DNA from: Panopea generosa
Taxonomy: Eukaryota > Mollusca > Bivalvia > Adapedonta > Hiatellidae
Reading direction: 5' to 3'
Length of the DNA stretch: 64,000 bases
Assembly (NCBI GenBank): GCA_029582155.1
Contig: CM055901.1
Span: forward strand, 2,853,001 to 2,917,000
In this document: positions 3,822 through 56,853 of the stretch, piece after piece
Position numbering within the stretch: position 1 is the first letter of the stretch
Layout of the letters: each line of letters opens with the position of its first letter
Notes under the pieces: generated by a model
The model's input: only the letters and a program-made list of their open reading frames with translations
Databases searched by the model: none
What the model was told of the DNA's origin: nothing
Made by a program: the position numbers and the translations under genes

Positions 3822-4500
3822 TAGATTATATGTAAATAATTAAATATTTCACATTAGGCAATCTTTATGAACTAGGGATTCATATCAATGTATGAATCCC
3901 ACGACAACTTCCTGCATCTTAATTGCATTATCATATGAATGTTTGCCAATTGCTTGGCGATTATGTTACTCCTCGTCTTGGGACAACATTATGATATATG
4001 TAAAGAATTGAATATTTCACATTAGGCAATCTTTATGAACTAGGGATTCATATCAATGTATAAATCCCACGACAACTTCCTGTATCTTAATTGCATTATC
4101 ATATGAATGTTTGCCAATTGCTTGGCGATTATGTAACTCCTCGTCTTGGGACAACATTATGATATATGTAAAGAATTAAATATTTCATATTAGGCAATCT
4201 TTATGAACTAGGGATTCATATCAATGTATGAATCCCACGACAACTTCCTGCATCTTAATTGCATTATCATTATAAATGTTTGCCAATTGCTTGGTGATTA
4301 TGTAACTCCTTTTCTTGGAACAACATTATGTTTATGTAAAGAATTAGATATTTCACATTAAGAAGTCCTTCTAAAACAGTGATGTCAATCAATTAATGAA
4401 TCCCACGACAACCTCCTTAGTTTTGTTCTATGTAATTGGATCTTTATTGCATTACCATACAAATGTTTGCCAACTACTTGGTGATTATGTAAAACATATT
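3822..4500. repeat. 168-bp tandem repeat, about 4 copies, each built around a palindrome
   Basis: The phrase aatatttcac(a/t)ttaggcaa starts at 3843, 4011 and 4179, exactly 168 bases apart; a diverged fourth copy starts at 4347. Each unit holds an inverted repeat gggattcata-tcaatg-tatgaatccc (3875-3900, 4043-4068 with one mismatch, 4211-4236). The fourth copy has lost the left arm. Three or four units of ~160-170 bp recall the repeat cores of bivalve 'pearl'/Helitron-type non-coding elements, but ends of such an element were not identified. Confidence 0.9.
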
Positions 4501-4760: not shown

Positions 4761-5074
4761 AAGTACAACCGGGGCCGCCACCTTGGAACTCGCAGTAGCA
4801 TTATGGGTAATTGATACGTGGTTGAGGAGTGCAATAAAGCTGGCTCTTCCAAGGTCCCCACATTGTAAATAAATATCAGCGCCAGACTATTATCTAAAAA
4901 CACACCAGTAATACAAAAACATGTCAACAACGTAGGGTTGGCTTACTGAGTGGATTCCTGAACCTAGCCCCTTGCTTCTCAGAATAAACTCTTTCCAATT
5001 CTTTCCTTTACTGGCAATGTTTCTTTATTTTGCATTTTTATATCTACGATAAATAGGTTTTTATTTGACTCCCT

Positions 5075-5911
5075 TTAGACAAGCAATACACACGTTGTTA
5101 CAGAAACATCTGAATATATCTATATACTCTAACACTACCTTTTGACAAGCAATACAAACATTATAACAGAAACGTCTGAATATAGCTATGTACACTAACA
5201 TTATTTTTAGACAAGCAATACAAACGTTATTACAGAAACATTTGAATATATCTATGTATACAAACACTACCTTTAGACAAGCAATACAAACATTATTACA
5301 AAAATATCTGAATATACCTATGTACACAAACAATTCCTTTAGACAAGCAATACAAACGTTATTATAGAAACATCTGAATATATTTATGTACACTAAGACT
5401 ACCTTTAGACAAGCAATACAAAAATTATTAGAGAAACATCTGAATATACCTATGAACTCTAACATTATCTTAAGACAAGCAATACAAACGTTATTACAGA
5501 AACATTTGAATATACCTATGGACACTAACATTATTTTTAGACAAGCAATACAAACGTTATTACAGAAACATCTGAATATACCTATGTACACAAACACTAC
5601 CTTTATACAAGCAATACAAACGTTATTACAGAAACATCTGAATATACCTATAATCACTTACATAATCGTTAGACAAACAACACAAACGTTTTTACAGAAA
5701 CATCTGAATATACCTATGTACACTAAAACTAGCCTAGACAAGCAATACAAACGTTATTACAGAAATATCTGAATAAACCTATGTACACTAACACTTCCAC
5801 TTCCTTAAGTCAAGCAATACAAACGTTGTTACAAAACATATGAATATACCTATGTACACTAACACTTTCACTACCTTTAGACAAACAACACAAACGTTAT
5901 TACAGAAACAT
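5075..5911. repeat. 66-bp minisatellite, about 13 copies
   Basis: The phrase agacaagcaatacaaacg recurs near 5077, 5140, 5209, 5275, 5341, 5407, 5475, 5541, 5606, 5671, 5736, 5808 and 5879. The unit is about 66 bases with slight drift. As 66 is a multiple of three, long frames stay open across it on both strands; these are not genes. Confidence 0.93.
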
Positions 5912-6099
5912 CTGAATATACCTATGTACACAGTGAATATACCTATGTACACAGTGAATATACCTATGTACACAGTAAATATACTTATGTACACAGTGAA
6001 TATACCTATGTACACAGTGAATATACCTATGTACACAGTAAATATACTTATGTACACAGTAAATATACCTATGTACACAGTAAATATACCTATGTACAC
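5912..6099. repeat. 21-bp array nested at the end of the 66-bp array, 9 copies
   Basis: The unit agtgaatatacctatgtacac is repeated nine times. It equals the right-hand third of the neighbouring 66-bp unit (ctgaatatacctatgtacac), so it arose by local amplification inside the last copy. A further degenerate 66-bp-type copy (agacaaacataac) follows at about 6120. Confidence 0.93.
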
Positions 6100-14359: not shown

Positions 14360-14891
14360 ATATGCCATATATAACCTGAAATGCCATATATAACCTGAAA
14401 TGCCATATATAACCTGATATGCCATATATAACCTGAAATGCCATATATAACCTGATATGCCATATATAACCTGATATGCCATATATAACCTGAAATGCCA
14501 TATATAACCTGATATGCCATATATAACCTGATATGCCATATATAACCTGAAATGCCATATATAACCTGATATGCCATATATAACCTGAAATGCCATATAT
14601 AACCTGATATGCCATATATAACCTGAAATGCCATATATAACCTGAAATGCCATATATAACCTGATATGCCATATATAACCTGAAATGCCATATATAACCT
14701 GAAATGCCATATATAACCTGATATGCCATATATAACCTGAAATGCCATATATAACCTGATATGCCATATATAACCTGAAATGCCATATATAACCTGATAT
14801 GCCATATATAACCTGAAATGCCATATATAACCTTTAATGCCATATATAACCTGATATGCCATATATAACCTGATATACCATATATAACCTT
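14360..14891 (+). repeat. 19-bp array, 28 copies, derived from a SINE-D tail
   Basis: The unit atgccatatataacctga(t/a) is repeated exactly every 19 bases from 14362 to 14875. Units ending in gat and gaa alternate in part. The single-copy version, ggatatgccatatataacct, is the 3' end of the SINE-D copy at 54 kb. After the array the same tail resumes (aaatgtgttgacaatgacgt). Long minus-strand frames across it are repeat translations. Confidence 0.95.
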
Positions 14892-14919
14892 AAATGTGTT
14901 GACAATGACGTTAAGTCCT

Positions 14920-16020: not shown

Positions 16021-18145
16021 ACAGATGTATCTATATAGTGGTTAATATATAAACAGGTGTCTATATACATGTAGTGGTTAAATATACAGAAAGGTATCTT
16101 TGTACATGTAGTGGTTACATACATAGAAAGGTATCTATATATTTAGTGTGGTTAAATACATAGAACGGTATCTATATGCATATTGTGATTACATACATAG
16201 AACAGTATCTATATGCATGTAGTGGTTAAATATATAGAACGGTATCTTTATGCATAAAGTGGTAAAATACATAGAACGGTATCTATATGCATGTAGTGGT
16301 TAAATACATAGAATGGTATCTATATGCATGCAGTGGATTAATACATAGAACGGTATCTATATACATGAAGTGGTTAAATATATAAAATGGTATCTATATG
16401 CATGTAGTGGTTAAAAACATAGAACATTTTCTACATACATGTAGTAGTTAAATATATAGAATGGTATCTATATGCATGTAGTGGTTAAATACATAGAACG
16501 GTATCTATATACATGAGTGGTTAAATATATAAAATGGTATCTATATGCATGTAGTGGTTAAATATATAGAATGCTATCTATATGCATGTAGTGGTTAAAT
16601 ACAAAGAACGGTATCTATATACATGAGTGGTTAAATATATAGAATGGTATCTATATGCATGTAGTGGTTAAATATATAGAATAGTATCTATATACATGTA
16701 GTGGTTAAATACATAAAATGGTATCTATATGCATGTAGTGGTTAAATACATCGAACGGTATCTATATACACGAGTGGTTTAATATATAGAATGGTATCTA
16801 TATGCATGTAGTGGTTAAATATATAAAACGGTATCTATATGCTTGAAGTGGTTTAATATTCAGAATGGTATCTTTATACACGTAGTGGTTAAATATATAT
16901 AGAACGGTATCTATATGCTTGAAGTGGTTAAATATACAGAATGGTATCTTTATACACGTAGTGGTTAGATATAAAAACGGTATCTTTATGCATGTAGTGG
17001 TTAAATATATAAAATGGTATCTATATGCATGTAATGATTAGATATATAGAACGGTATCTATATACATGAGTGGTTAAATATATATAGAACGATATCTATA
17101 TGCATGTAGTGGTTTAATATAGAACGGTATATATATGCATGTAGTGGTTAAATACATAGAACGGTATCTGTATGCATGAAGTGGTTAGATATATAGAATG
17201 GTATCTATATGCATGTAGTGGTTAAATACATAAAACGGTATCTATATGCATGTAGTAGTTAAATATATAGAAAGGTATCTATATACATTTAGTGATTAAA
17301 TACATAGTAGGGCATATTTATATACATGTAATGGTTAAATACATAGAAAGGTATCTATATGCATGTAGTGGTTAAATACATAGAAAGATATCTATGTGCA
17401 TGTAGTGGTTAAATACATAGAAATGGATCTATATACATACAGTGGTTAAATACATAGAATTGTATATATATACATGAAGTGGTTAAATACATAGAACGGT
17501 ATCTATATATATGAAGTGGTTAAATACATAGAACGGCATCTATATGCATGAAGTGGTTAAATATATTGAAACGTATATATATATATATATATATATATAT
17601 GCATGTAGTGGTTACAGTCTAGAACGGTATCTATATGCATATAGTGGTTAAATATTTAGAACGGTATCTATATACATATAGTAGTTAAATACATAGAACG
17701 GTATCGATATGCATATAGTGGTTAAATACATAGAAAGGTATCTATATACATGTAGTGGTTAAATAAATAGAACGATATCTATATACATGTAGTGGTTAAA
17801 TTTATAGAACGGTATCTATATGCATATAGTGGTTAGATATATATAACGGTATATATATATGCATGTAGTGGTTAAATATATAGAACGGTATCTATATGTA
17901 TGTAGTGGTTGGATATATTTAACGGTATATATATACATGTATTGGTTAAATATATAGAACGGTATCTACATACATGTAGTGGTTAAATATATAGAACAGT
18001 ATATATATGCATGTAGTGGTTAAATATATAGAACAGTATCTATATGCATGTAGTGGTTAAATATATAGAACGGCATCTATATGCATGTAGTGGTTAAATA
18101 TGCAGACAGTATCTATATACACGTAGTGGTTAAATACATTAAACG
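16021..18145. repeat. 37-bp minisatellite, about 57 copies
   Basis: The unit is built on ggtatctatatgcatgtagt followed by ggttaaatacatagaac. It runs for about 2.1 kb with point changes, a few shortened units (catgagtgg without gta) and an internal TA expansion at 17577-17600. No frame stays open for long. Confidence 0.95.
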
Positions 18146-18504
18146 AACATGTGTGTATTCTACGTGCCAGTTAATTTTTAAATGTTATAGTTTATTTAAG
18201 AATTATTTTGTAAAGCCGTCATTTTATTGGAATTGTTAACTCGGGGTTATAGAACGTTATAGTCTGCAAGTCTTCTGGGCACTGACATGCCGGATGTATC
18301 GATCGTATTGTGCAACTATGTATTACATCAGAAAAGTGTACGCGCATCAATCAGTTGTAGATACTGTAATCAATCAAAAACATCTCTCGATTTTTTTTCA
18401 TTTGTACATGCGTGCGTACTTGCGTGCGAGCGTGCAAGCAAGCGTGCGTTTGTGAGTGTCTTTTTAAAATTAATCCCCGACTCTAAGCCGAGGCAAGTGC
18501 TTAA

Positions 18505-19270
18505 AACGATGTCATACCTGAATATTGCGCGATTTTACACCTAAATGATTTCATACCTGAATATTGAACGATGTCATACCTGAATATTGCACTATTTTAC
18601 ACCTAAATGATTTCATACCTGAATATTGAAAGATTTTACACCTAAATGATTTAATGCCTGAATATTGAACGATGTCATGCCTGAATATTGAAAGATGTCA
18701 TACCTGAATATTGAACGATTTTACACCTTAATGATTTCATACCTGAATATTAAAAGATTCTGCACCTAATTGATTTCATACCTGAATATTGAACGATGTC
18801 ATACCTGAATATTGAACGATTTTACACCTACATGTAAATGATTTCATACCTGAATATTGAACGATTCTGCACCTAATTGATTGTATACTTGAATATTGAA
18901 CGATGTCATACCTGAATATTGCACGATTTTACACCTAAATGATTTCATACCTGAAAATTGAACGATTTTGCACCTAATTGATTTCATACCTGAATATTAA
19001 AAGATGTCATACCTGAATATTGCACGAGTCTGCACCATATTGATTTCATACCTGAATATTGAACGATGCCATACCTGAATATTGCACGATTTTACACCTA
19101 AATGATTTCATACCTGAATATTGAACGATTCTGCACCTAATTGATTTCATACCTGAATATTGAAAGATGTCATACCTGAATATTGAACAATTTTACACAC
19201 AAATGATTTCATACCTGAATAATGAACGATGTCATACCTGAATATTGAACGATTTCATACCTGAATATTG
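18505..19270. repeat. Two-monomer minisatellite (23 and 39 bp)
   Basis: A short unit acgatgtcatacctgaatat and a longer unit acgattttacacctaaatga followed by tttcatacctgaatattg are interspersed irregularly. They share the core atacctgaatattg. It lies only 360 bases after the 37-bp array. Confidence 0.92.
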
Positions 19271-19505: not shown

Positions 19506-21085
19506 AAAGGGTTCTCTATTTACATGTTTATATTTCCAGACTGATGTCACTTCCAAATGTTTCATTTACACATCATAGTGGCGTGCTCTATTTTCATGTT
19601 TATATTTCCAGACTGATGTCACTACCAAATGTTTCATTTACACATCATTCAATGGAAGAAAGATGGCAATTAGGGTTAAGGGGTGCTCTATTTACATATT
19701 CATTATATATCTAGACTGATGTCACTACCAAATGCTTCATTCACACATCATTCAATAGAAGAAGGGCAATTGGGGTGAGGGGTGCTCTATTTACATGTTT
19801 ATTATATCTCCAGACTGATGTCACTACCAAATGTTTCATTTACACATCATTCAATGGAAGCAGGATGTCAATGAAGGTGAGGGGTGCTCTATTTACATAT
19901 TTATATGTCCAGACTGATGTCACTTCCAAATGTTTCATTTACACATCATTCAATGGAAGCAGGATGTCAATGAGGGTGAGGGGTGCTCTATTTACATGTT
20001 TATATGTCCAGACTGATGTCACTACCAAATGTTTCATTTACACATCGTTCAATGGAAGAAAGACAATGAAGGCCGGGGTGTGGTGGTGGTGGTGGGGGGG
20101 GGGGGTGCTCTATTTACATATTTATATGTCCAGACTGATGTCACTACCAACTGTTTCATTTACACATCATTCAATGGAAGAAGGACAATGAGGGTGTGGG
20201 GTGCTCTATTTACATTGTTATATGTCCAGACTGATATCACTACCAACTGTTTCATTTACACATCATTCAATGGAAGAAGGACAATGAGGATGAGGGTGAG
20301 GGGTGCTCTATTTACATTGTTATATGTCCAGACTGATATCACTACCAACTGTTTCATTTACACATCATTCAATGGAAGAAGGACAATGAGGGTGAGGGTG
20401 CTCTTTTTACATTGTTATATGTCCAGACTGATGTCACTACCAACTGTTTCATTTACACATCATTCATCATTCAATGGAAGAAGGACAATGAGGATGAGGG
20501 TGCTCTATTAACATGGTTATATGTCCAGACTGATGTCACTACCAACTGTTTCATTTACACATCATTCAATGGAAGAAGGACAATGAGGATGAGGGTGGGG
20601 AAGGGGGGGGGGGGCGGGGTGCTCTATTTACATATTTATATGTCCAGACTGATATCACTACCAACTGTTTCATTTACACATCATTCAATGGAAGAAGGAC
20701 AATGAGGGTGTGGGGTGCTCTATTTACATTGTTATATGTCCAGACTGATGTCACTACTAAATGTTTCATTTACACATCATTCAATGGAAGAAAGACAATG
20801 AAGGCCGTGGGGGGGGGGGGGCGGGGGTGCTCTATTTACATGGTTATATGTCCAGACTGATGTCACTACCAAATGTTTCATTTACACATTATTCAATGGA
20901 AGAAAGACAATGAAGGCCGGGGGGGGGGGGGGGGGGGGGGGGGGAGGGGGGTGCTCTATTTACATGGTTATATGTCCAGACTGATGTCACTACCAAATGT
21001 TTCATTTACACATCATTGAATAGAAAAAGGGCAATGAGAATGAGGGGTGCTCTTTTTACATGTTGATAAGCCCAGACTGATGTCA
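19506..21085. repeat. ~98-bp minisatellite with poly-G expansions, about 17 copies
   Basis: The phrase cagactgatgtcactacc recurs every 95-124 bases from 19538 to 21077. Length differences come mostly from a G run placed just before tgctctattt: 20094-20105, 20603-20614, about 20809-20820, and 20919-20951 (26 G, A, 6 G). Three overlapping + strand frames of 97-160 codons are repeat translations. Confidence 0.95.
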
Positions 21086-28169: not shown

Positions 28170-29166
28170 TCAAGTAGTAGAACTATTAACGGAAAATAAC
28201 ATGGATGTCACTGCAAATATCGACGTTCTTTTTTTGTTTTTAAATGTTTTATTTCTCATTATACAGACATGTAAATAACAAAACGTTGTTCATATCACAA
28301 AAATAGTAGGAACAGTAGCATGTTGAGATGTACATTTTTATATTAACAAGTGCCTTCAGACTATGTTTATATATCTAAAACTATATATTAAAGCCGTTCA
28401 CAATAATTACATATAGCATTTTAAATAGTATAAAATATGAAAATAAACACGTTATTGGATTTTTACATATACAACATATAAATTTACTTTTTATAACTAA
28501 ATGTTGTCACAATGTGTAATATTAATGTCTGTATGTATAACATAAGAAATAAGTTTGTTCATATAGAGAGTAAAGAAGGGAAAGAGTATAAAGAAAGTTT
28601 AATATCGATGACGGTATATTAACTTTTACGTACCGTTTAACCTTTAGGAACTTTTAATACAGTAGGTCAAACACTGTTGTAAATTTTTCATAAGACGGAG
28701 GTGGTCGATACCATTTTGCGTAATGTTTGTAAGAAAACTACTTATTTACGACCATTACGAGACACAACAACGGTCAAATTAGTCGTAAAGGACTTCCGGA
28801 GAGTTGGTCAGTGAAAACAGATATCTGTTCCTCGACGAGCTGATCAATGATGAGCAACAATAAATGTAATTGATTATAAACGAAAAACCGGTAGTTCCAT
28901 TCCCGCCTTATTTTGTTTGTGTTATGGAAATTGCCCCATCTATATAGGATTGCCTCGTGAAACGAATTACTTTTTACTCTCCGCTCCAGTTGGCTCATGT
29001 ATTCGAATTAGTTCGACTGAACAGGGGGAACACACGGAACATGCTTCAGTTTCAATGGTTGATTTGGTTTGTATGTACGAGTGACAAGATGATTCAGTTA
29101 CTTTATTACAACGTGTTTATTCTTTAGATGCTCATTTTGTCCACGATTGTTGTGAATGTGAATATG
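28170..29166. other. AT-rich spacer, no secure gene
   Basis: A 74-codon minus-strand frame (28774-28998) beginning M-S-Q-L-E-R-R has mixed composition but no recognised domain. Confidence 0.4.
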
Positions 29167-30958
29167 AGACTTTAATTGTCACCCTTTATCTGGGACATTA
29201 TAACTTTATAACCATAGAGCAGCTCGTTCCTATGTGAGACTTTAATTGTCAGCATTTTTCTGGGACACATATAACTTTATAACCATAGAGCAGCTCGTTC
29301 CTATGTGAGACTTTAATTGTCACTTTTTTTCTGGGACACATATAACTTTATAACCAGAGAGCAGCTCGGTCCTCTGTAAGACTTGAGTTATCACAATTTT
29401 TCTGGGACACATATAACTTTATAACCATAGAGCAGCTCGGTCCTCTGTGAGACTTTAATTGTCAGCATTTTTCTGGGACACATATAACTTTATAACCAGA
29501 GAGCAGCTCGGTCCTCTGTAAGACTTGAGTTATCACAATTTTTCTGGGACACATATAACTTTATAACCAGAGAGCAGCTCGGTCCTCTGTAAGACTTGAG
29601 TTATCACAATTTTTCTGGGACACATATAACTTTATAAGCAGAGAGCAGCTCGGTCCTCTGTGATACTTTAATTGTCGCCATTTTTCTGGGACACATATAA
29701 CTTTATAACCAGAGAGCAGCTCGGTCCTCTGCGATACTTTAATTGTCAGCATTTTTCTGGGACACATATAACTTTATAACCAGAGAGCAGCTCGGTCCTC
29801 TGTAAGACTTGAGTTATCACAATTTTTCTGGGACACATATAACTTTATAACCATAGAGCAGCTCGGTCCTCTGTGAGACTTTAATTGTCACAATTTTTCT
29901 GGGACACATATAACTTTATAACCACAGAGCAGCTCGGTCCTCTGTAAGACTTGAGTTATCACAATTTTTCTGGGACACATATAACTTTATAACCAGAGAG
30001 CAGCTCGGTCCTCTTTTAGACTTTAATTGTCACTATTTTTCTGGGACACATATAACTTTATAACCATAGAGCAGCTCGGTCCTCTGTGAGACTTTAATTG
30101 TCACAATTTTTCTGGGACACATATAACTTTATAACCACAGAGCAGCTCGGTCCTCTGTAAGACTTGAGTTATCACAATTTTTCTGGGACACATATAACTT
30201 TATAACCACAGAGCAACAAGGTCCTCTTTGAGACTTTAATTGTCACTTCTTTTCTGGGACACATATAACTTTATAACCAGAGAGCAGCTCGGTCCTCTGT
30301 AAGACTTGAGTTATCACAATTTTTCTGGGACACATATAACTTTATAACCAGAGAGCAGCTCGGTCCTCTGTAAGACTTGAGTTATCACAATTTTTCTGGG
30401 ACACATATAACTTTATAACCAGAGAGCAGCTCGGTCCTCTTTTAGACTTTAATTGTCACTATTTTTCTGGGACACATATAACTTTATAACCATAGAGCAG
30501 CTCGGTCCTCTGTGAGACTTTAATTGTCACAATTTTTCTGGGACACATATAACTTTATAACCACAGAGCAGCTCGGTCCTCTGTAAGACTTGAGTTATCA
30601 CAATTTTTCTGGGACACATATAACTTTATAACCACAGAGCAACAAGGTCCTCTTTGAGACTTTAATTGTCACTATTTTTCTGGGACACATATAACTTTAT
30701 AACCAGAGAGCAGCTCGGTCCTCTGTGAGACTTTAATTGTCACAATTTTTCTGGGACACATATAACTTTATAACCACAGAGCAGCTCGGTCCTCTGTAAG
30801 ACTTGAGTTATCACAATTTTTCTGGGACACATATAACTTTATAACCACAGAGCAACAAGGTCCTCTTTGAGACTTTAATTGTCACTATTTTTCTGGGACA
30901 CATATAACTTTATAACCATAGAGCAGCTCGGTCCTCTGTGAGACTTTAATTGTTGTGT
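29167..30958. repeat. 71-bp minisatellite with higher-order structure, about 25 copies
   Basis: The shared part of the unit is tctgggacacatataacttt followed by ataacca. The rest varies in discrete types: A (gagactttaattgtca), B (taagacttgagttatcac), C (gagcaacaaggtcctctttg) and D (cctcttttagacttta). Units are 71 bases apart (gcagctcgg at 29361, 29432, 29503). Confidence 0.95.
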
Positions 30959-32835: not shown

Positions 32836-34365
32836 CCCAAGGAAACATAGACTGAACCTAGAAGACAGAGGTCAGATTACTGACCCCAGGAAGTAGAGTC
32901 CATCTTACTGACCCAAGGAAGTATAGGTCAGCCTACTGAACCGTGGAAGCATAGGTTAGCCATCTGAACCGCGGAAGCACAGGTCAGCTTATTGAACCGA
33001 TAAAACATAGGTCAGCCAACTGAACCACGGAAGTATAGGTCAGCCTACTGACCCATTGAAGTAGAAACTAGCTTACTGAACCAAGGAAGCATAGGTCAGC
33101 TTACTGAACCAAGGAAGCAGAGGTCATATTACTGAACCAAGGAAGTAAAGGTCAGCTTACTTACTCATTGAAGCATTGGTCAGCCTACTGAACCAAGGAA
33201 GCATATGTCAGCTTACTGACCCAAGGAAATAGAGGCCGGCTTTCTTACCTAAGGAAGTAAAGGTCATCTAACTGAACTGAGGAAGCATAGGTCAGTTTAC
33301 TGACACACGGAGGCATAGGTCAGCTTACTTAACCACGGAAGCATAGGTCAGCCTACTTAACCACGGAAGCATAGGTCAGCCTACTTAACCACGGAAGCAT
33401 AGGTCAGCCTACTTAACCACGGAAGTATAGGTCTGCTTACTGAACCAAGGAAGTAGAGGCCAACTTACTAAACCAAGGAAGCATAGATCAGCTAACTGAC
33501 TGACAGAAATATATGTCAGCTTACTTAACCACGGAAGTAGAGGCCAACTTACTGAACCACGGAAGCATAGGTCAGTTAACTGACCGGCGGAAGTATATGC
33601 CAGTTTACTGACCCACTGTAGCATAGGTCAGATTACTGACCCAAGGAAGTAGAGAACAGCTTACTGAATCAAGTAGGAAGACGAGGTCTGCTTACTGACC
33701 CAAGAAATTATAGGCCGGCTTACTTACCTACGGAAGTAGAGGTCATCTTTCTGAACCAAGGAAGCATAGGTCAGTTTACTGACACACGGAATCATAGGTC
33801 AGCTTACTAAACCACGGAAGCATAGGTCAGTTTACTGACACACGAAAGCAAAGATCAGCTTACAGACCAACGGAAATATATGTCAGCCTACTGAACCACG
33901 GAAGCATATGTCAGCTTACTGATCCAAGGAAGTAAAGGCCAACTTACTGAACCACGAAAGCAGAGGTCAGCTAACTGACCGACGCAAGTATAGGTCAGTT
34001 TACTGACACACGGAAGTAGAGGCCAGCTTACTGATCCAAGGAAGTAGAGGCCAGCTTACTGAATCACGAAAGCAGAGGTCAGCTAACTGACCGACGCAAA
34101 TATAGGTCAGTTTACTGACACACGGACGCAAAGGCCAGCTTACTGATCCAAGGAAGTAGAGGCCAGCTTACTGAACCACGAAAGCAGAGGTCAGCTAACT
34201 GACCGACGCAAATATAGGTCAGTTTACTGACACATGGAAGTAGAGGCCAGCTTACTGACCCAAGAAAGTAGAGGCCAGCTTACTGAACCATGGTAGAATA
34301 GGTCAAATAAACATAAGTCAGTTTACTGACACAAGGAAAAAGATCAGATTACTGATATTAGTCAT
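32836..34365. repeat. 28-bp minisatellite, about 54 copies
   Basis: The unit is ggaagcataggtcagcttac followed by tgaaccac. Copies are evenly spaced (for example 33365 and 33393) but vary (cataggtca/tagaggcca; gaaccacgg/gacccaagg). Near-identical multi-unit blocks in 33950-34270 (agcagaggtcagctaactga) show recent block duplication. Confidence 0.95.
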
Positions 34366-34860: not shown

Positions 34861-36392
34861 AGTCTATATCATATACATTTATTGTCTATGAAAATTGTAA
34901 TTATTGTCTTTACTTAATGTATTTAATTTATTTACTTTATGTATTTATTGACTCTATTTATTATCTTTGTCTGTATATTATGTATATAATACATTAACTA
35001 TATGTTTATAATATACTTACCATATCTATATTTTGTTTATATTCAATAAATATAATGAAGGTATTTATCGTATATAATATATGTATATAATGTATTTACG
35101 ATATGTATATATATATATATATATATATAGTACGTATCTATTATATCACGTGTTTTTCGTGTTTATACTATATGTAGATCCTCTTAAATATTTTTTTCTA
35201 AATACCGATAGAAATAAAATCATATTCATATATATATTATTTTATTTCTCAAAACGAAGAAAATAGTTGTTGTTGTTTTTCTGAGAAGCTGTGTTAACTT
35301 TATTTATATTAGCATTGTGTTTAATTTATATTGACTGTTTCCAAATAGAAACAAAAACAGCAATTGTCTTTAATGTGCCATTATTAACAGAAAGATGTGG
35401 TGAAATTGGTCTCATGATTCTACGTGACTTACATTAATGTGTTTCGTTATCTTAACGTCTCACTAAACAGTTACGCCCCTTTTTCCCACGGTAGCAAGAT
35501 TCTTACGCTTAAAAAAAGGCCTATGTACTTTAGTTATGGAATTTTTTCAAAATGGTTCATAGTGGTTGTGATTTCTTGCTGCAGATGAGTAGAGCAAATG
35601 TTGGCATAGCATATACTGCAATAAGACATCACTGGTGTTAAAAAAGTGACTTTTATAGGATTTCAACATGTGCATGTTTTTATGAGCATTTGAGGACTTC
35701 TTTTTTCAAAAAAGCTCAATGTGTCACTGCACCCTCTTTAAAAAAAACAACGTTGACAACCTACCAATTATTGTGCATTTTCATGTGGGTATACATTCCT
35801 GAGTTGAAAAAAAAAATTAAAAAAATTATATGTGGAATTCTTGTTTTACCATTGAAATCCTAGACCTTTTTATATAGAACAAAGAATAAAATTCAACTGT
35901 GTAGTGAGACCTAAATGACAATCTCTATGCTGTATTCTATTTTAATATATTCATAGCTGTTGTTTTGGTATTGAACGTTCTATTAGGTGAATATATAACG
36001 GGGACTTTATTTCAAAAGCCGACACCTAGGAGCTGTGTTTCAAATCGAACAACTTTGGGCTTTTTTGTTAACGTGCAGGACGGTGTAATTTATGATGTAA
36101 AAGCCATTAGGATATTTGTACAAATGGGAACCCATGGTCGAATTTCACCAAGTATTTATTACTTGGAGTAGAACCCAAACCTTACTCAAGTGCACATTTT
36201 TTTGTTGATAAGTAGTGATAGTGAGACTAGGCCAGGGATGAACATAAAAATAATATCATTTGCATCAACAGTATTATGTAAATAAACCATAAAACATTTT
36301 TTTAAAATTTCAAAATCTAACCATTAAATATAATTATTGATTTGGTAATAAAATTAAAGACGAGACCGAGCAGATCGGATTTCCAATTCACA
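34861..36392. other. AT-rich stretch, no gene seen
   Basis: Apart from the TA run near 35107, nothing. The frame at 35965-36171 has moderately protein-like composition but no recognised domain. Confidence 0.4.
35107..35129. repeat. (TA)n microsatellite
   Basis: A pure AT dinucleotide run within a broader AT-rich stretch. Confidence 0.85.
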
Positions 36393-52330: not shown

Positions 52331-52596
52331 GAGAGCTCCATGTGCCTCTGGAAGTTTGTGGCGCGGTGGTCAAACGAGAGCTGGACTATTGGCAGATAAA
52401 CGAGAACCATATAAAGTCATGCTGTTGGAGGAATTATCGTTCTTACATCGAAAACAAACGTATTTTAGATTCGTTTAACCGTAGTATTCTGAAGCAGCAG
52501 ATGTGTATAAAATACGACGACCTAAAGGGATGGGAAAGATTCCGAACAAAAATGTGGTTGTTTTTAGAATATCCAAGAACTTCCCAATCAGCCATG
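52331..52596 (+). CDS. Shaw/Kv3-like voltage-gated K+ channel, exon encoding second half of T1 domain
   Basis: Internal exon, 266 bp. It follows a good acceptor (tctccgttgcag ending at 52330) and ends at a strong donor (gtaagt from 52597). It opens with the last two bases of a Gly codon (phase 1) and ends in phase 0 on the Met codon at 52594. It encodes about 89 residues. The T1 zinc site HX5CX20CC is complete: His at 52339, Cys at 52357, Cys-Cys at 52420-52425. In Kv2, Kv3 and Kv4 channels this site holds the cytoplasmic T1 tetramer together through zinc and decides which subunits assemble. The CCW-x-x-Y-R stretch and the W-x-x-F-x-x-x-M-W end resemble Shaw/Kv3. The linker after T1 is short. 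The first half of T1 (the NVGG part) and the start codon are not here, so an upstream exon must exist if the gene is functional. Confidence 0.93.
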
Positions 52597-52964
52597 GTAA
52601 GTACAAATAATAAATTAAGTGACTACTTTTTGTCCTACTTTCTCAGTCAATAAAATTGTGCAGATTTTTTTTTAAAAATAGAACATTCCAGTTTACATAG
52701 AGTGTCATGACCGTCAGAAGATGTTGGCAGGCTTCCTCCGCCAATGAAATCGCTCAAAGAACGAGAAACTAGATTAACAACTCAGCTCAACTCAATTAGA
52801 AGTAATATGCACTTTTTTACTGGCGTAGTAATTTTCATATAATTTCTAACATACACATAAAATGTTCGTTTATATATTTTCCATATCCCCATTCATTTGA
52901 TGTTTCTTTTCATTTACTGACTTTTCCTTTGGGCATGATAGTTTTACTGTAGATTACTAGTCTG

Positions 52965-53147
52965 TAAAGCGGGCCCAGCTCTCCTGATTGGGTCCGTTAA
53001 ATAGCAATATTGGGAAAGCCACTTTTGAGCACGTTGATTGGTCAGTTGTTTCAACTGAAAGTTTGATGTCGTAAGCGTTCAACTGCTTTGAATTGTTGGA
53101 CAGGCATAGAATTCCCTGCTTTTTCGTTGGTGGTTTATAGACCTGAT
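52965..53147 (-). repeat. Dispersed ~185-bp repeat, copy 2 (intronic)
   Basis: Inverted relative to 39187-39370. The clearest shared blocks are gagcacgttgattggtcagt, tgtttcaactg and cctgctttttcgttgg. Confidence 0.78.
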
Positions 53148-54237
53148 TTGGGGGAAAGACTTATAGAAATCTATATATGACAATTTTGGACACTTTGTTT
53201 ATCTTCTTTTTAGCGTTATACACGGAGATGAAGATGGAGATATTATTACACTAATTCTAAAAGACAATAAACCCAGACAAAAATATAGACCAATGTAACT
53301 TTACAAGACAGTAATCTGGTGCAATAGCAAATCATTTTTGGAATTATGATTTAAAATACTATATAAGTGTTTTAACACACACTACCGCAGACAACAACTC
53401 ATTGCAAATAAACATGCTAAAATATAAAGTCCAGTCTATTTTAATAAAAAAATAAGGATTGGTGACACATATCTATTATTTAAAATTGCTATAATAATGG
53501 TTCAATTCTAATAAATGGTTTTATAACAGAAAATGGAAGGTTCTTTACTTGAAATGGAAGTTAACACAATTTAAAATATTAAATGATTTGTTTACGCTAT
53601 TGAATTGTGAATTAAGCAATTGAAGAATACCTTTATTATACGTATAACGTTCTTAATATGAGCAACTATTCGCCAACATCATAGATTTAAATGTAATCTA
53701 AAATGCAATTTTAGTAAGCAACATGATACATTCCCATTTCAAAACCAACAAGGACTACATTGCAATGGACCCAGGTTAGAATAATTCATAACATTTTATC
53801 AAACAGTTATTTTTTGCATAAAATTAGATGAAATAATCCAATTTCCTTCTATTGCACATAAGAGGAAACCATAACGCATGTGTTACGTTCCTGCCCCAAG
53901 ACACAATCCATTATAAAATAGTTGAAAAGATGGATTTTCTCTATAAATCATGTAGAAATAACAGAAGGATCGTTTATTTTTAATATAGGAAAATGATTAA
54001 TACCACTACAACTATGTAGTATTGGAAACAAAATTTATATAAAACATATAGAAGTTCTACATAAAAACTTAAAATAAGCTTAAAGGAATATATATAATTT
54101 GCAAAATCTAGCTATAAAAAACAAAAAATTGGAACCTTATAAAAAGGATCTGAATTCATATTTTAGTATTTGATCACAATAAGTAAACAAATCAAATAAA
54201 CTATAAACCGGGTTGCATATACAAAATCTACTTTTTT

Positions 54238-54482
54238 ATTTTTATTGTTTAGAATAGGGTTTAACGCCATTTAAACACATTTCAGGTTATATATGGCATA
54301 TCCATTTTTATTGACGAAGGAAGACCTCGGAAAAAATCTGAGTAGAACCATCCTTCTTCCGCAAGGAACTGGCAAACTTTCTCGCATACAAATTTTGGAC
54401 TGAGCGGGACTCGAATCTTTGACCTAAGCGGTGAGCGGTAAATGCTCTTAAGATGGTACCCACTCGACCTAAGAGGACCCCG
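54238..54482 (-). mobile_element. tRNA-derived SINE, family D, near full length (intronic)
   Basis: On the minus strand: head aggtcgagtgggtaccat, B box agattcgagtcccgctcagt, body ccttgcggaagaaggatggt and cgaggtcttccttcg, and a single tail unit ggatatgccatatataacct. This is the reference copy showing the source of the 19-bp array at 14360. Confidence 0.88.
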
Positions 54483-55686
54483 TAAGAAAAACAAATCTCC
54501 TGTCAATCACACATGCAAATAACGATATCCATATCATAGATTAAAATAAAATTCTATGGTCTTGGTGGAGACAGCAAATTTAAATTACTTGACAATTTCT
54601 TCTTTTTAAATGTTTTACCAGAAACAGCTAGACACCATATATATATTTCCCCAAACCTCTAAAGACCCAATGTGTATACTCTTGTCTCAGTATTTCACAC
54701 CGAATATGAATGTGAATAAATGAAAGAATAAGTTAAAGAGCTACTATAATATCACAAAGATGTACTATTAATGTAAGCATTGTGCACTGTGCGATGGGAT
54801 GACCCTGACCTGTAACACACTTATCGACGGGGAAATAAAGGTACAAAACTGAAAGAAAAAATATAGATATTGTTGCATTGTTATGTAAAGCATGTGTTGT
54901 TTTATGTGTACATATATAAAACATATGTGCTTTTAAGAAACTTAAATACAAATAGAGTTGATTTAAATGCGTTTGAAATATGGAAGAAAACCATGCAGAT
55001 AAATAGAGAAATTCTCTGATATTATTTCTTGAAATTGAATACATTACCTCCATTTACAAAACTTATCCCATCATTTGACATAATAATTAGGTGACAAAAT
55101 AAATGTAAGTTAATTCGGCAGGTAACGAAACAAAATTTCACTCGGAATACTTTGATTGTATATTTAAGTTTAATGGCCAAGATTTTACTACTAAATTTTA
55201 AACATACTATGCATATTTGGCCAAAGGATGGATATAGTACTAGAATAATTCGTTTCCTTGTAAAATGTATTAAGTTCGACATGAAAACATAATAATATTC
55301 TCGTCTTGTTGTATTTCTTAGTTTCACCTAATAAACAGCGTAGGAGAAAGACACTAATCTAGTAGTCTATTGTATTTATCCTTTGACCAAAAATCCAACG
55401 TATGTTTAGGTTTTAAACATTTTATCTTGGATATTATTGAATCATTATTGAAAATTTTATTTTGCTAACAGCCGTATAAACTTTATTCGGTATATAAATA
55501 ATATAATGTACATTTTAAGATTGTCTCTTCGCCCGTGTTGACAAATTACATTGAGAATAGAGGAACCTCCTGCTGATGATGGGTATTAAAACAGTATTGG
55601 AACAATTCATGTACCAGGTGATGTATCAATATATTTGTAAATTTAAAATCATTGCCATAATTTAATTTCAATTGTTTTTTTTTCAG

Positions 55687-56853
55687 GCGTTTGGAATAGT
55701 TTCCTTGATGTTCGTCATCTCGTCAATTCTCGGTTTCTGCCTAGAAACGCTACCAAACTTACGTCCAACAAACGTGACTTTGCCAAACACCACCAGCAAC
55801 TGCAACGGGAAAAATGTAACGACCAGCTATATTCTCAAGCCGAATGAAGCCTTAAACATTCTTGATACCATATGCACAGCCTTTTTCACCATGGAACTAA
55901 TTGTTCGTTTTTCGTTCTCGCCTAGTAAATTTAGATTCGTTCGTTCGGCCATGAACATCATTGACTTGCTGGCGCTTGTACCTCTATATATGCAACTTAT
56001 TTTGAACTCTGACAAGTTCAAGTTTTGCTATGCCAACGAACGGTTTATTTTTGAGATTATGTTCATTTTACGGATCATTCGGATGTTTCGCATTTTTCAT
56101 CTTGTCAAACACTATCAGGCTTTGCAGATTTTAGTTTATGCGCTCAAGGCAAGCTTACAGGAGTTGTTCATGTTAGGGATATTTTTACTCATAGGCATGC
56201 TTGTGTTTGCCACCATGATTTACTATGCAGAACGGAAGGACGCTGTGAATCCCAGTGACACATTTAGCACCATTCCAATCGGCTTTTGGTGGGCAATTAT
56301 CACTATGACAACAGTGGGTTATGGTGACGTTCATCCCGAGAAACCGATTGGTTATATTGTAGGCACGTGCTGTGCCGTAAGCGGTGTGCTAATGGTTGCT
56401 CTCACAATTCCGGTAATTTCAAATAATTTTACTCTGTTTTACACTCACGTCAGGTCTCGGGGAGGGCAGAGCTCTTCAAACGATTTAGGGGATAGTGAAA
56501 TACGATACCATTCTGAAGATGGCGCCAAAATTTACGAGAATGCCAGACGAACTTCAAACGGTTCAATTATCATGAATGACAAAAGTTTGACGCTGCCAAG
56601 AAAGAATTCGAACATTTCCGCCGCTACATTGGATGCTTACACGAATGGAAAGTGCGGTCATAATGGTGATATTAGATACGGGCGGATGTTGAGTGAACCG
56701 TCACCGAGGTACACGGAATCAGCATCTCTGGCAGAAGCTGCAACGACTAAAAGAGCTGAAACGGATTCTTACATAACACGTACAGGTTCTGTGAAGGCTC
56801 ATTCAGATGACGGCGTGATGTACTCAGGTGACGCCATGCTTGACTACTGTTGA
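55687..56853 (+). CDS. Shaw/Kv3-like voltage-gated K+ channel, last coding exon (S1-S6, pore, C-terminus)
   Basis: Encodes 388 residues from a polypyrimidine-tract acceptor (ag at 55685-55686) to TGA at 56851. Domains in order: S1 about 55687-55752; an S1-S2 loop with three N-x-T sequons; S2 about 55852-55914 with the F-T-M-E charge-transfer residues; S3 with I-I-D about 55942-56005; S4 about 56053-56112; S5 about 56152-56232; and a pore with the TVGYGD filter at 56311-56328. In Shaker numbering S4 keeps R2, R3 and R4 (Arg codons 56071, 56080, 56089), but R1 is Phe (56062) and K5 is His (56098). In S6 the glycine hinge is kept, but PVP reads T-I-P (56404-56412) and the next residues are V-I-S before NNF. 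The ~130-residue tail has two PKA-like sites: R-R-T-S (56545-56556) and R-K-N-S (56599-56610). The protein is a plasma-membrane K+ pore subunit. The filter should select K+; gating is probably altered. The family call is secure; whether it conducts alone is open. Confidence 0.95.
   Translation, partial: AFGIVSLMFVISSILGFCLETLPNLRPTNVTLPNTTSNCNGKNVTTSYILKPNEALNILDTICTAFFTMELIVRFSFSPSKFRFVRSAMNIIDLLALVPLYMQLILNSDKFKFCYANERFIFEIMFILRIIRMFRIFHLVKHYQALQILVYALKASLQELFMLGIFLLIGMLVFATMIYYAERKDAVNPSDTFSTIPIGFWWAIITMTTVGYGDVHPEKPIGYIVGTCCAVSGVLMVALTIPVISNNFTLFYTHVRSRGGQSSSNDLGDSEIRYHSEDGAKIYENARRTSNGSIIMNDKSLTLPRKNSNISAATLDAYTNGKCGHNGDIRYGRMLSEPSPRYTESASLAEAATTKRAETDSYITRTGSVKAHSDDGVMYSGDAMLDYC

Follow-up and report, generated by a model that had tools for sequence, protein, structure and literature searches.

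What kind of subunit does a Shaw-type potassium channel gene encode when the first proline of its S6 gate is a threonine? The P-x-P motif is regarded as the hinge on which Kv activation gates turn. The exceptions that we found in the literature have either lost the second proline, as vertebrate silent subunits have, or belong to another family (hERG). The gene considered here lies in a stretch of 64,000 nucleotides from the genome of Panopea generosa (C8:2853001-2917000; hereafter the window, with positions counted from its first base). A sequence-only reading had described it as a Shaw-like K+ channel in which the first S6 proline is replaced by Thr, and the codons ACA (56404-56406) and CCG (56410) bear this out. 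The following parts of the gene were recognised in the window:

52331-52596, + strand: exon 2, T1 domain (C-terminal half) and linker to S1, with an AG acceptor and a GTAAGT donor
52597-55686, + strand: phase 0 intron, GTAAGT ... TTTTTTTTTCAG, from the sequence
55687-56853, + strand: exon 3, S1-S6 and the C-terminal tail, from the open reading frame, Pfam and alignment

The forward-strand reading frame of exon 3 runs for 388 open codons to a TGA at 56851-56853, and the other two forward frames across the exon carry 25 and 26 stops. Its match to Pfam Ion_trans has an E value of 3e-42. Exon 2 covers positions 61-94 of the 94 in Pfam BTB_2 (E 6.9e-5), keeps the T1 zinc-site pattern H-x5-C ... CC, and finds its best PDB matches in Kv3.1 (E 6e-11) and the Shaw T1 domain (3kvt, E 7e-9). 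Exon 3 by itself scores slightly higher against Kv1.3 than against Kv3.1; with the two exons joined, human Kv3.1 is the best match among solved structures (E 7.7e-73, against 2e-64 for Kv2.1 and 4e-64 for Kv1.3), and the alignment to it is free of gaps through S6. A six-transmembrane Ion_trans domain, a TVGYGD filter and a charged S4 identify the product as a Kv subunit.

Within the window there is no second copy of either channel exon at E 1 or better, no Rfam match, and no Pfam match above cut-off in the seven reading frames, besides the channel exons, that were scanned of the 33 listed with at least 100 residues; most of the remaining frames sit in repeats. Minisatellites with periods of 19 to 208 bases are dense over much of the first 35 kb (3827-4417, 5068-6099, 14362-14896, 16036-19254, 19514-21037, 29165-30953 and 32869-34305), one array consisting of 25 copies of a 71-base unit.

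The features that bear on gating are as follows:

55864-55866, + strand: Asp in S2 at the Shaker E283 position, by alignment
56047-56112, + strand: S4, IFEIMFILRIIRMFRIFHLVKH, by alignment
56098-56100, + strand: His (CAT) at S4 position K5 (Shaker K374), by alignment
56311-56328, + strand: selectivity filter TVGYGD, intact
56350-56448, + strand: S6 helix GYIVG...FYTH, from the sequence and predicted helix 220-259 of the structure model
56380-56391, + strand: SGVL with the S6 glycine, intact
56401 onwards, + strand: gate codons L CTC 56401, T ACA 56404, I ATT 56407, P CCG 56410, V 56413, I 56416, S TCA 56419, N 56422, N 56425, F 56428
56404-56406, + strand: Thr (ACA) at the first-proline place (Shaker P473), by codon reading and alignment
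56410-56412, + strand: second proline (CCG, Shaker P475), retained, by codon reading
56419-56421, + strand: Ser (TCA) at the Shaker V478 gate position, by codon reading

The gate thus reads A-L-T-I-P-V-I-S-N-N-F. The S6 glycine, the NNF and the TVGYGD filter are kept, as the sequence-only reading had stated; the Ser at the V478 place and the His at K5 are additional to it. According to the available text of a review (PMC3440756), V478 and F484 are the residues that seal the pore of the Shaker gate, and the place of F484 is unchanged here. The gene lacks the P-x-P of a canonical alpha-subunit, having T-I-P, and it retains at 56410 the second proline whose loss defines the silent (KvS) subunits. 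A non-conservative change of the S6 gate, here P473T together with V478S, is the mark of regulatory (R) subunits, although it is a marker and not proof. A structure model built from 32 rows reached a pLDDT of 86.1 (a two-row model with a pLDDT of 39.5 was dropped), and a kinked and a straight S6 look alike in its secondary structure alone.

In the ungapped register S4 has Phe at R1 and Arg at R2-R4. An alternative alignment opens a three-residue gap in S4 against Kv3.1, in common with Drosophila Shaw and the Kv1-like gene L001 described below, so that the register is uncertain and R1 is Phe or Arg accordingly; R3 is Arg.

The sequence-only reading had proposed that the gene should be aligned with paralogues of the same genome to see whether the altered gate is shared. 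A profile search of the assembly (1,474,161,289 bases in 39 contigs) with PF00520 at E <= 0.001 gave matches at no fewer than 116 places; 150 of 257 candidates were scored, so the locus counts are lower bounds. We examined 48 of the 116 listed loci, hand-picked among the stronger and longer matches and including the window's own. A single-exon pore frame, recognised by a filter-like pattern, was present in 41 of them, and after omission of L056, in which S6 is incomplete, 40 Kv-type loci were tallied. Only six have P-x-P: L007 (Shab-like), L008 (Shaker-like), L009, L010 (Shaw), L011 and L013. Eighteen have lost only the first proline, thirteen only the second, and three have lost both.

The class without the first proline comprises the window gene and L014, L022-L031, L035, L040, L044, L048, L049 and L053. 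The residue at the first place is Thr in 12 of these 18 loci, the window gene included, and otherwise Ser (2), Ile (2), Ala (1) or Val (1); the second proline is present in all 18 by definition of the class. The S6 glycine and TVGYGD are likewise found in 18 of 18, with the proviso that loci chosen by a filter-like pattern would not include any that had lost the filter. At the V478 place Ser occurs only in the window gene and L014, the other 16 having Val (13) or Ala (3).

The thirteen loci without the second proline read P-I-G or P-I-A (Gly in 9, Ala in 4), and all thirteen have Ala at the V478 place. Those on C14 (L036, L038, L039, L042, L043, L045, L046, L047 and L050) form two clusters, at 0.44-0.47 Mb and 19.48-19.68 Mb, with several near copies among them; L033, L041, L051 and L054 complete the class. 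These genes follow the rule of the vertebrate silent subunits and apparently arrived at it separately. The three loci with neither proline (L052, L055 and L058) read F-L-S, carry a TVGYGD filter and have Tyr at the place of Shaker F481. Near copies (L011/L013 at 92%, L023/L024 at 93%, several P-I-G loci at 91-100%, and L042/L043 identical across the aligned part) mean that the 40 loci represent fewer independent genes, and duplicate assembly of some of them is not excluded. The suggestion of a modulatory or oddly gating paralogue is plausible as to role; the gene is not a lone variant, since 18 of the 40 loci lack the first proline and 13 the second. With so many sister loci showing the same or the mirror-image change, the window gene belongs to an old altered-gate family and is not a one-off.

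The altered gates are accompanied by changes in the voltage sensor. K5 is Lys in six of six P-x-P loci against one of the 34 altered-gate loci, which otherwise have Arg (29), His (2), Val (1) or Gln (1). The E283 place in S2 is Glu in all six P-x-P loci against five of the 34; the remaining 29 have Asp (25), Asn (3) or Tyr (1). Should the altered loci descend from one ancestor, the changes at the gate, K5 and S2 are not independent events. A tree of 39 rows (37 loci of this genome, 31 of them altered, and two references) over 299 columns, with the gate columns excluded, contains a branch supported at 97/96 that has the P-x-P rows on one side and all 31 altered loci on the other. Rooting between Shaker and all others, as drawn in PMC9989356, would make the altered loci a single clade. 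They attach beside Shaw and Kv3.1, where the branching order has support of only 47/9, and the long branches make the deep order of the tree unsafe. The window gene pairs with L014 (100/100), and the P-x-x loci cluster together (90/91) with L049 (V-V-P) adjoining them (99/97). The topology test disfavoured (p-AU 0.021) a clade uniting every first-proline loser with the three double losers, a grouping chosen after the first tree.

L014 (C8:24.63 Mb) is the closest paralogue of the window gene, 78% identical over S1-S6, and its gate reads T-F-P-V-I-S-N-N-F. Synonymous sites between the two genes are saturated (pS 0.87, with pN 0.165); over the 61 codons of the pore and S6, dN/dS is about 0.04, a value meaningful as an order of magnitude only because the dS of 2.3 is near saturation. 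In a 34-codon block of S4 and the linker, bounded by EIMF and LKAS, all 18 differences are synonymous; a 37-codon block of S6 has 19 synonymous and four replacement differences, one of which falls on the central position of T-I-P. Thr is encoded by synonymous codons in the two genes (ACA in the window gene, ACG in L014), and the Pro and Ser codons are identical. The retention of Thr, Pro and the gate Ser across saturated synonymous change argues that T-x-P is old and selected, and not an error. By this codon comparison the Thr is held by long-term selection in the pair, which makes a base error at 56404 very unlikely and counts against passive decay of the gate. Transcript reads with a proline codon at 56404, which would have spoken against the altered gate, are unlikely, given that L014 encodes Thr through ACG and that A-to-I editing of ACA could yield only Ala or Thr.

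The tails of the two genes (56449-56850 in the window) are 49% identical overall and share the motifs YHSED, NARRTSNGSII and SVKAHSDDGVMYSG(D/E)AML, which are possible interaction or phosphorylation sites. A stretch of some 370 bases at 35540-35909 of the window is 80% identical to one upstream of L014 in the opposite orientation, and is probably a dispersed repeat.

The first half of the T1 domain was not located. Neither tblastn nor an HMM search with filters off gave exon 1 in the 52 kb of the window that precede exon 2 or in a further 70 kb upstream (122 kb in all); the HMM search scored the gene's own exon 2 at E 5e-9. The same T1 queries recover the N-terminal half in L001 and 12 loci of this genome (13 in all), among which the first-proline-lost class is not represented, and several P-I-G/A loci have both T1 halves nearby. 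At the other 17 loci lacking only the first proline the flanks hold no T1 stretch and no match to exon 2; these flanks extend only about 1 to 1.5 kb past the matches and thus do not imply that T1 is absent. Such loci may have long introns or may have lost T1. The 20 kb upstream of L014 contain neither exon 2 nor exon 1, which makes long introns likely, though unproven.

Against this background, we consider that the window gene may well encode a regulatory (R-type), Shaw-like subunit, weak or silent alone and derived from an old group with a rebuilt gate; the chances of this reading, on sequence grounds, are about even. It is the most likely one because altered gates of this kind resemble those of regulatory subunits that work only in heteromers, and because first-proline mutants of Kv1.1 carry poor currents. 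In the available text of PMC9989356, Kv regulatory subunits with altered gates conduct only in heteromers, and gate changes, as a marker and not a cause, occur in 43 of 44 R-subunits of Nematostella and mouse. Kv1.1 P403A, a mutant of the first proline, gives a small current that opens slowly with a +30 mV shift and is dominant negative, and the current of P403S was not measurable (PMC9331732, available text). Three points weigh against this reading: the orderly choice of Thr or Ser (14 of 18 loci) and the strong purifying selection would fit a working alternative gate equally well, the gates of R-subunits being said to change through relaxed selection (PMC9989356); Kv1.1 P403A conducts by itself (PMC9331732); and there is no proof of the assembly domain, the first half of which did not turn up within 122 kb.

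A serious rival, and a close second, is that the gene encodes an alpha-subunit in which T-x-P is a working one-proline gate, the subunit forming homomers with the S6 bend at the second proline and with shifted or slower gating. This has a less than even chance. The pattern looks too orderly for decay, with Thr or Ser in 14 and the glycine and TVGYGD in all 18 of the first-proline-lost loci, whose choice by a filter-like pattern would have passed over any loss of the filter, and S4 and S6 are under strong purifying selection. Precedents exist in Kv1.1 P403A, which conducts without a partner (PMC9331732), and in hERG, which gates without the PXP prolines (PMC3440756). Other published statements argue the opposite: Kv1.1 P403S has no measurable current (PMC9331732), in several Kv channels alanine at the prolines is 'not well tolerated' (PMC3440756), and alpha-subunits are said not to show a change of the gate (PMC9989356).

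A leak or gating-pore (omega) conductance at rest, through the polar Thr and Ser of the gate or the altered S4 and S2, is improbable. The Asp at the E283 place and, in the ungapped register, the lack of Arg at R1 recall the flatworm channel N.at-Kv3.2, an omega-current channel whose S2 has the shorter Asp and whose S4 is unusual (PMC2443804, available text). In that channel, however, R1 is His and R3 is Gly, while in the S4 of the window gene R1 is Phe (ungapped) and three arginines remain, and an Asp found at the E283 place in 25 of 34 altered loci is not specific. Least probable of all is a pseudogene or an assembly or base error at 56404, to which the first T1 half, sought in vain through 122 kb upstream, and the single base between ACA and a Pro codon might point, but against which stand the 388 open codons beside 25 and 26 stops in the other forward frames, the T, P and S shared with L014 amid silent differences, and the first-place Thr in 12 of 40 loci.

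As a regulatory subunit, the product would tetramerise through its putative T1 domain, mainly with a conducting Shaw-type subunit, for which the canonical Shaw gene of the same genome (L010) is a candidate. It would contribute a K+-selective pore to the mixed channel, and its lower S6, which is more polar and has a single proline, could along with the His at K5 of S4 shift the voltage and speed at which the heteromer opens. A bolder and rather unlikely proposal, drawn from the sequence patterns, is that one genome holds a large clade of Kv subunits derived from Shaw with two mirror-image gates, T-x-P and P-I-G/A, each conserved separately and both linked to the same changes at S4 K5 and S2, and that at least the T-x-P gates operate with a single proline. 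If this were so, P-x-P would not be required for voltage gating in channels of the Shaker superfamily, and the two classes may complement each other in mixed tetramers. The 18 paralogues with only the second proline and the 13 with only the first (near copies included) make each proline testable in evolved, selected channels of one genome instead of in crippled mutants.

We also looked for the altered gate outside this genome. A protein search of viral contigs returned nine stretches with no relative among them, and a DNA pattern for T-[IV]-P-V-I-x-N-N-F returned three, none in an open channel frame. By alignment, two of 26 viral stretches (L005 and L006) are prokaryote-like K+ channel pores without T-I-P; L006 is a viral contig of very large size (IMG/VR, 469,617 bases), in which a pore with TVGYGDF is followed by what looks like an RCK-type domain. 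Among 49 stretches from genome contigs one, L001, is a Kv1-like gene with P-V-P, not T-I-P. Its long open frame (L001:596-2308) encodes an animal-type channel including T1 on a contig assigned to a Polyangiaceae MAG, and is probably eukaryotic contamination of that MAG; L001 has Thr at the V478 place, as does L009 of the present genome. The strings TIPVIS, ALTIPV, TIPVIVNNF and TIPVIVSNF are absent from the literature text searched (figures lay outside the search). Among the literature matches listed, titles and abstracts name no Pro-to-Thr mutant of a K+ channel, and titles and abstract openings no altered Shaw gate in molluscs. Expanded lophotrochozoan Shaw sets are on record, with 13 genes in Lottia and 9 in Capitella against 2 in Drosophila (PMC3519636, available text), and no description of their S6 gates turned up in the text searched, figures and supplements being outside the search.

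Kv3/Shaw channels are among the closest known systems. The window gene shares with human Kv3.1, Drosophila Shaw and L010 the T1 zinc pattern, TVGYGD and the S6 glycine, at 37-42% identity over S1-S6, and with Kv3.1 the NNF; it differs from them in T-I-P for P-V-P, Ser at V478, His at K5 and Asp at E283. Vertebrate silent subunits keep the filter, as the window gene does. Kv5, Kv6, Kv8 and Kv9 have also lost one proline of PXP, but theirs is the second, as the sequence-only reading had said (PMC3440756, available text), and their partners are Kv2 channels; the window gene has lost the first, and the 13 P-I-G/A loci of its own genome fit the silent-subunit rule better. The flatworm N.at-Kv3.2 is likewise of Kv3 type with an altered S4 and Asp in S2, and differs in combining His at R1 with Gly at R3, a combination that the S4 of the window gene lacks (PMC2443804). 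Shaw-type R-subunits are present in Nematostella, whose R-subunits resemble the present group in forming an expanded family with changes in the S6 gate (PMC9989356). Large regulatory-subunit systems have been described in cnidarians and vertebrates, and the sequences reported here suggest that a further animal lineage has one within a Shaw-like family.
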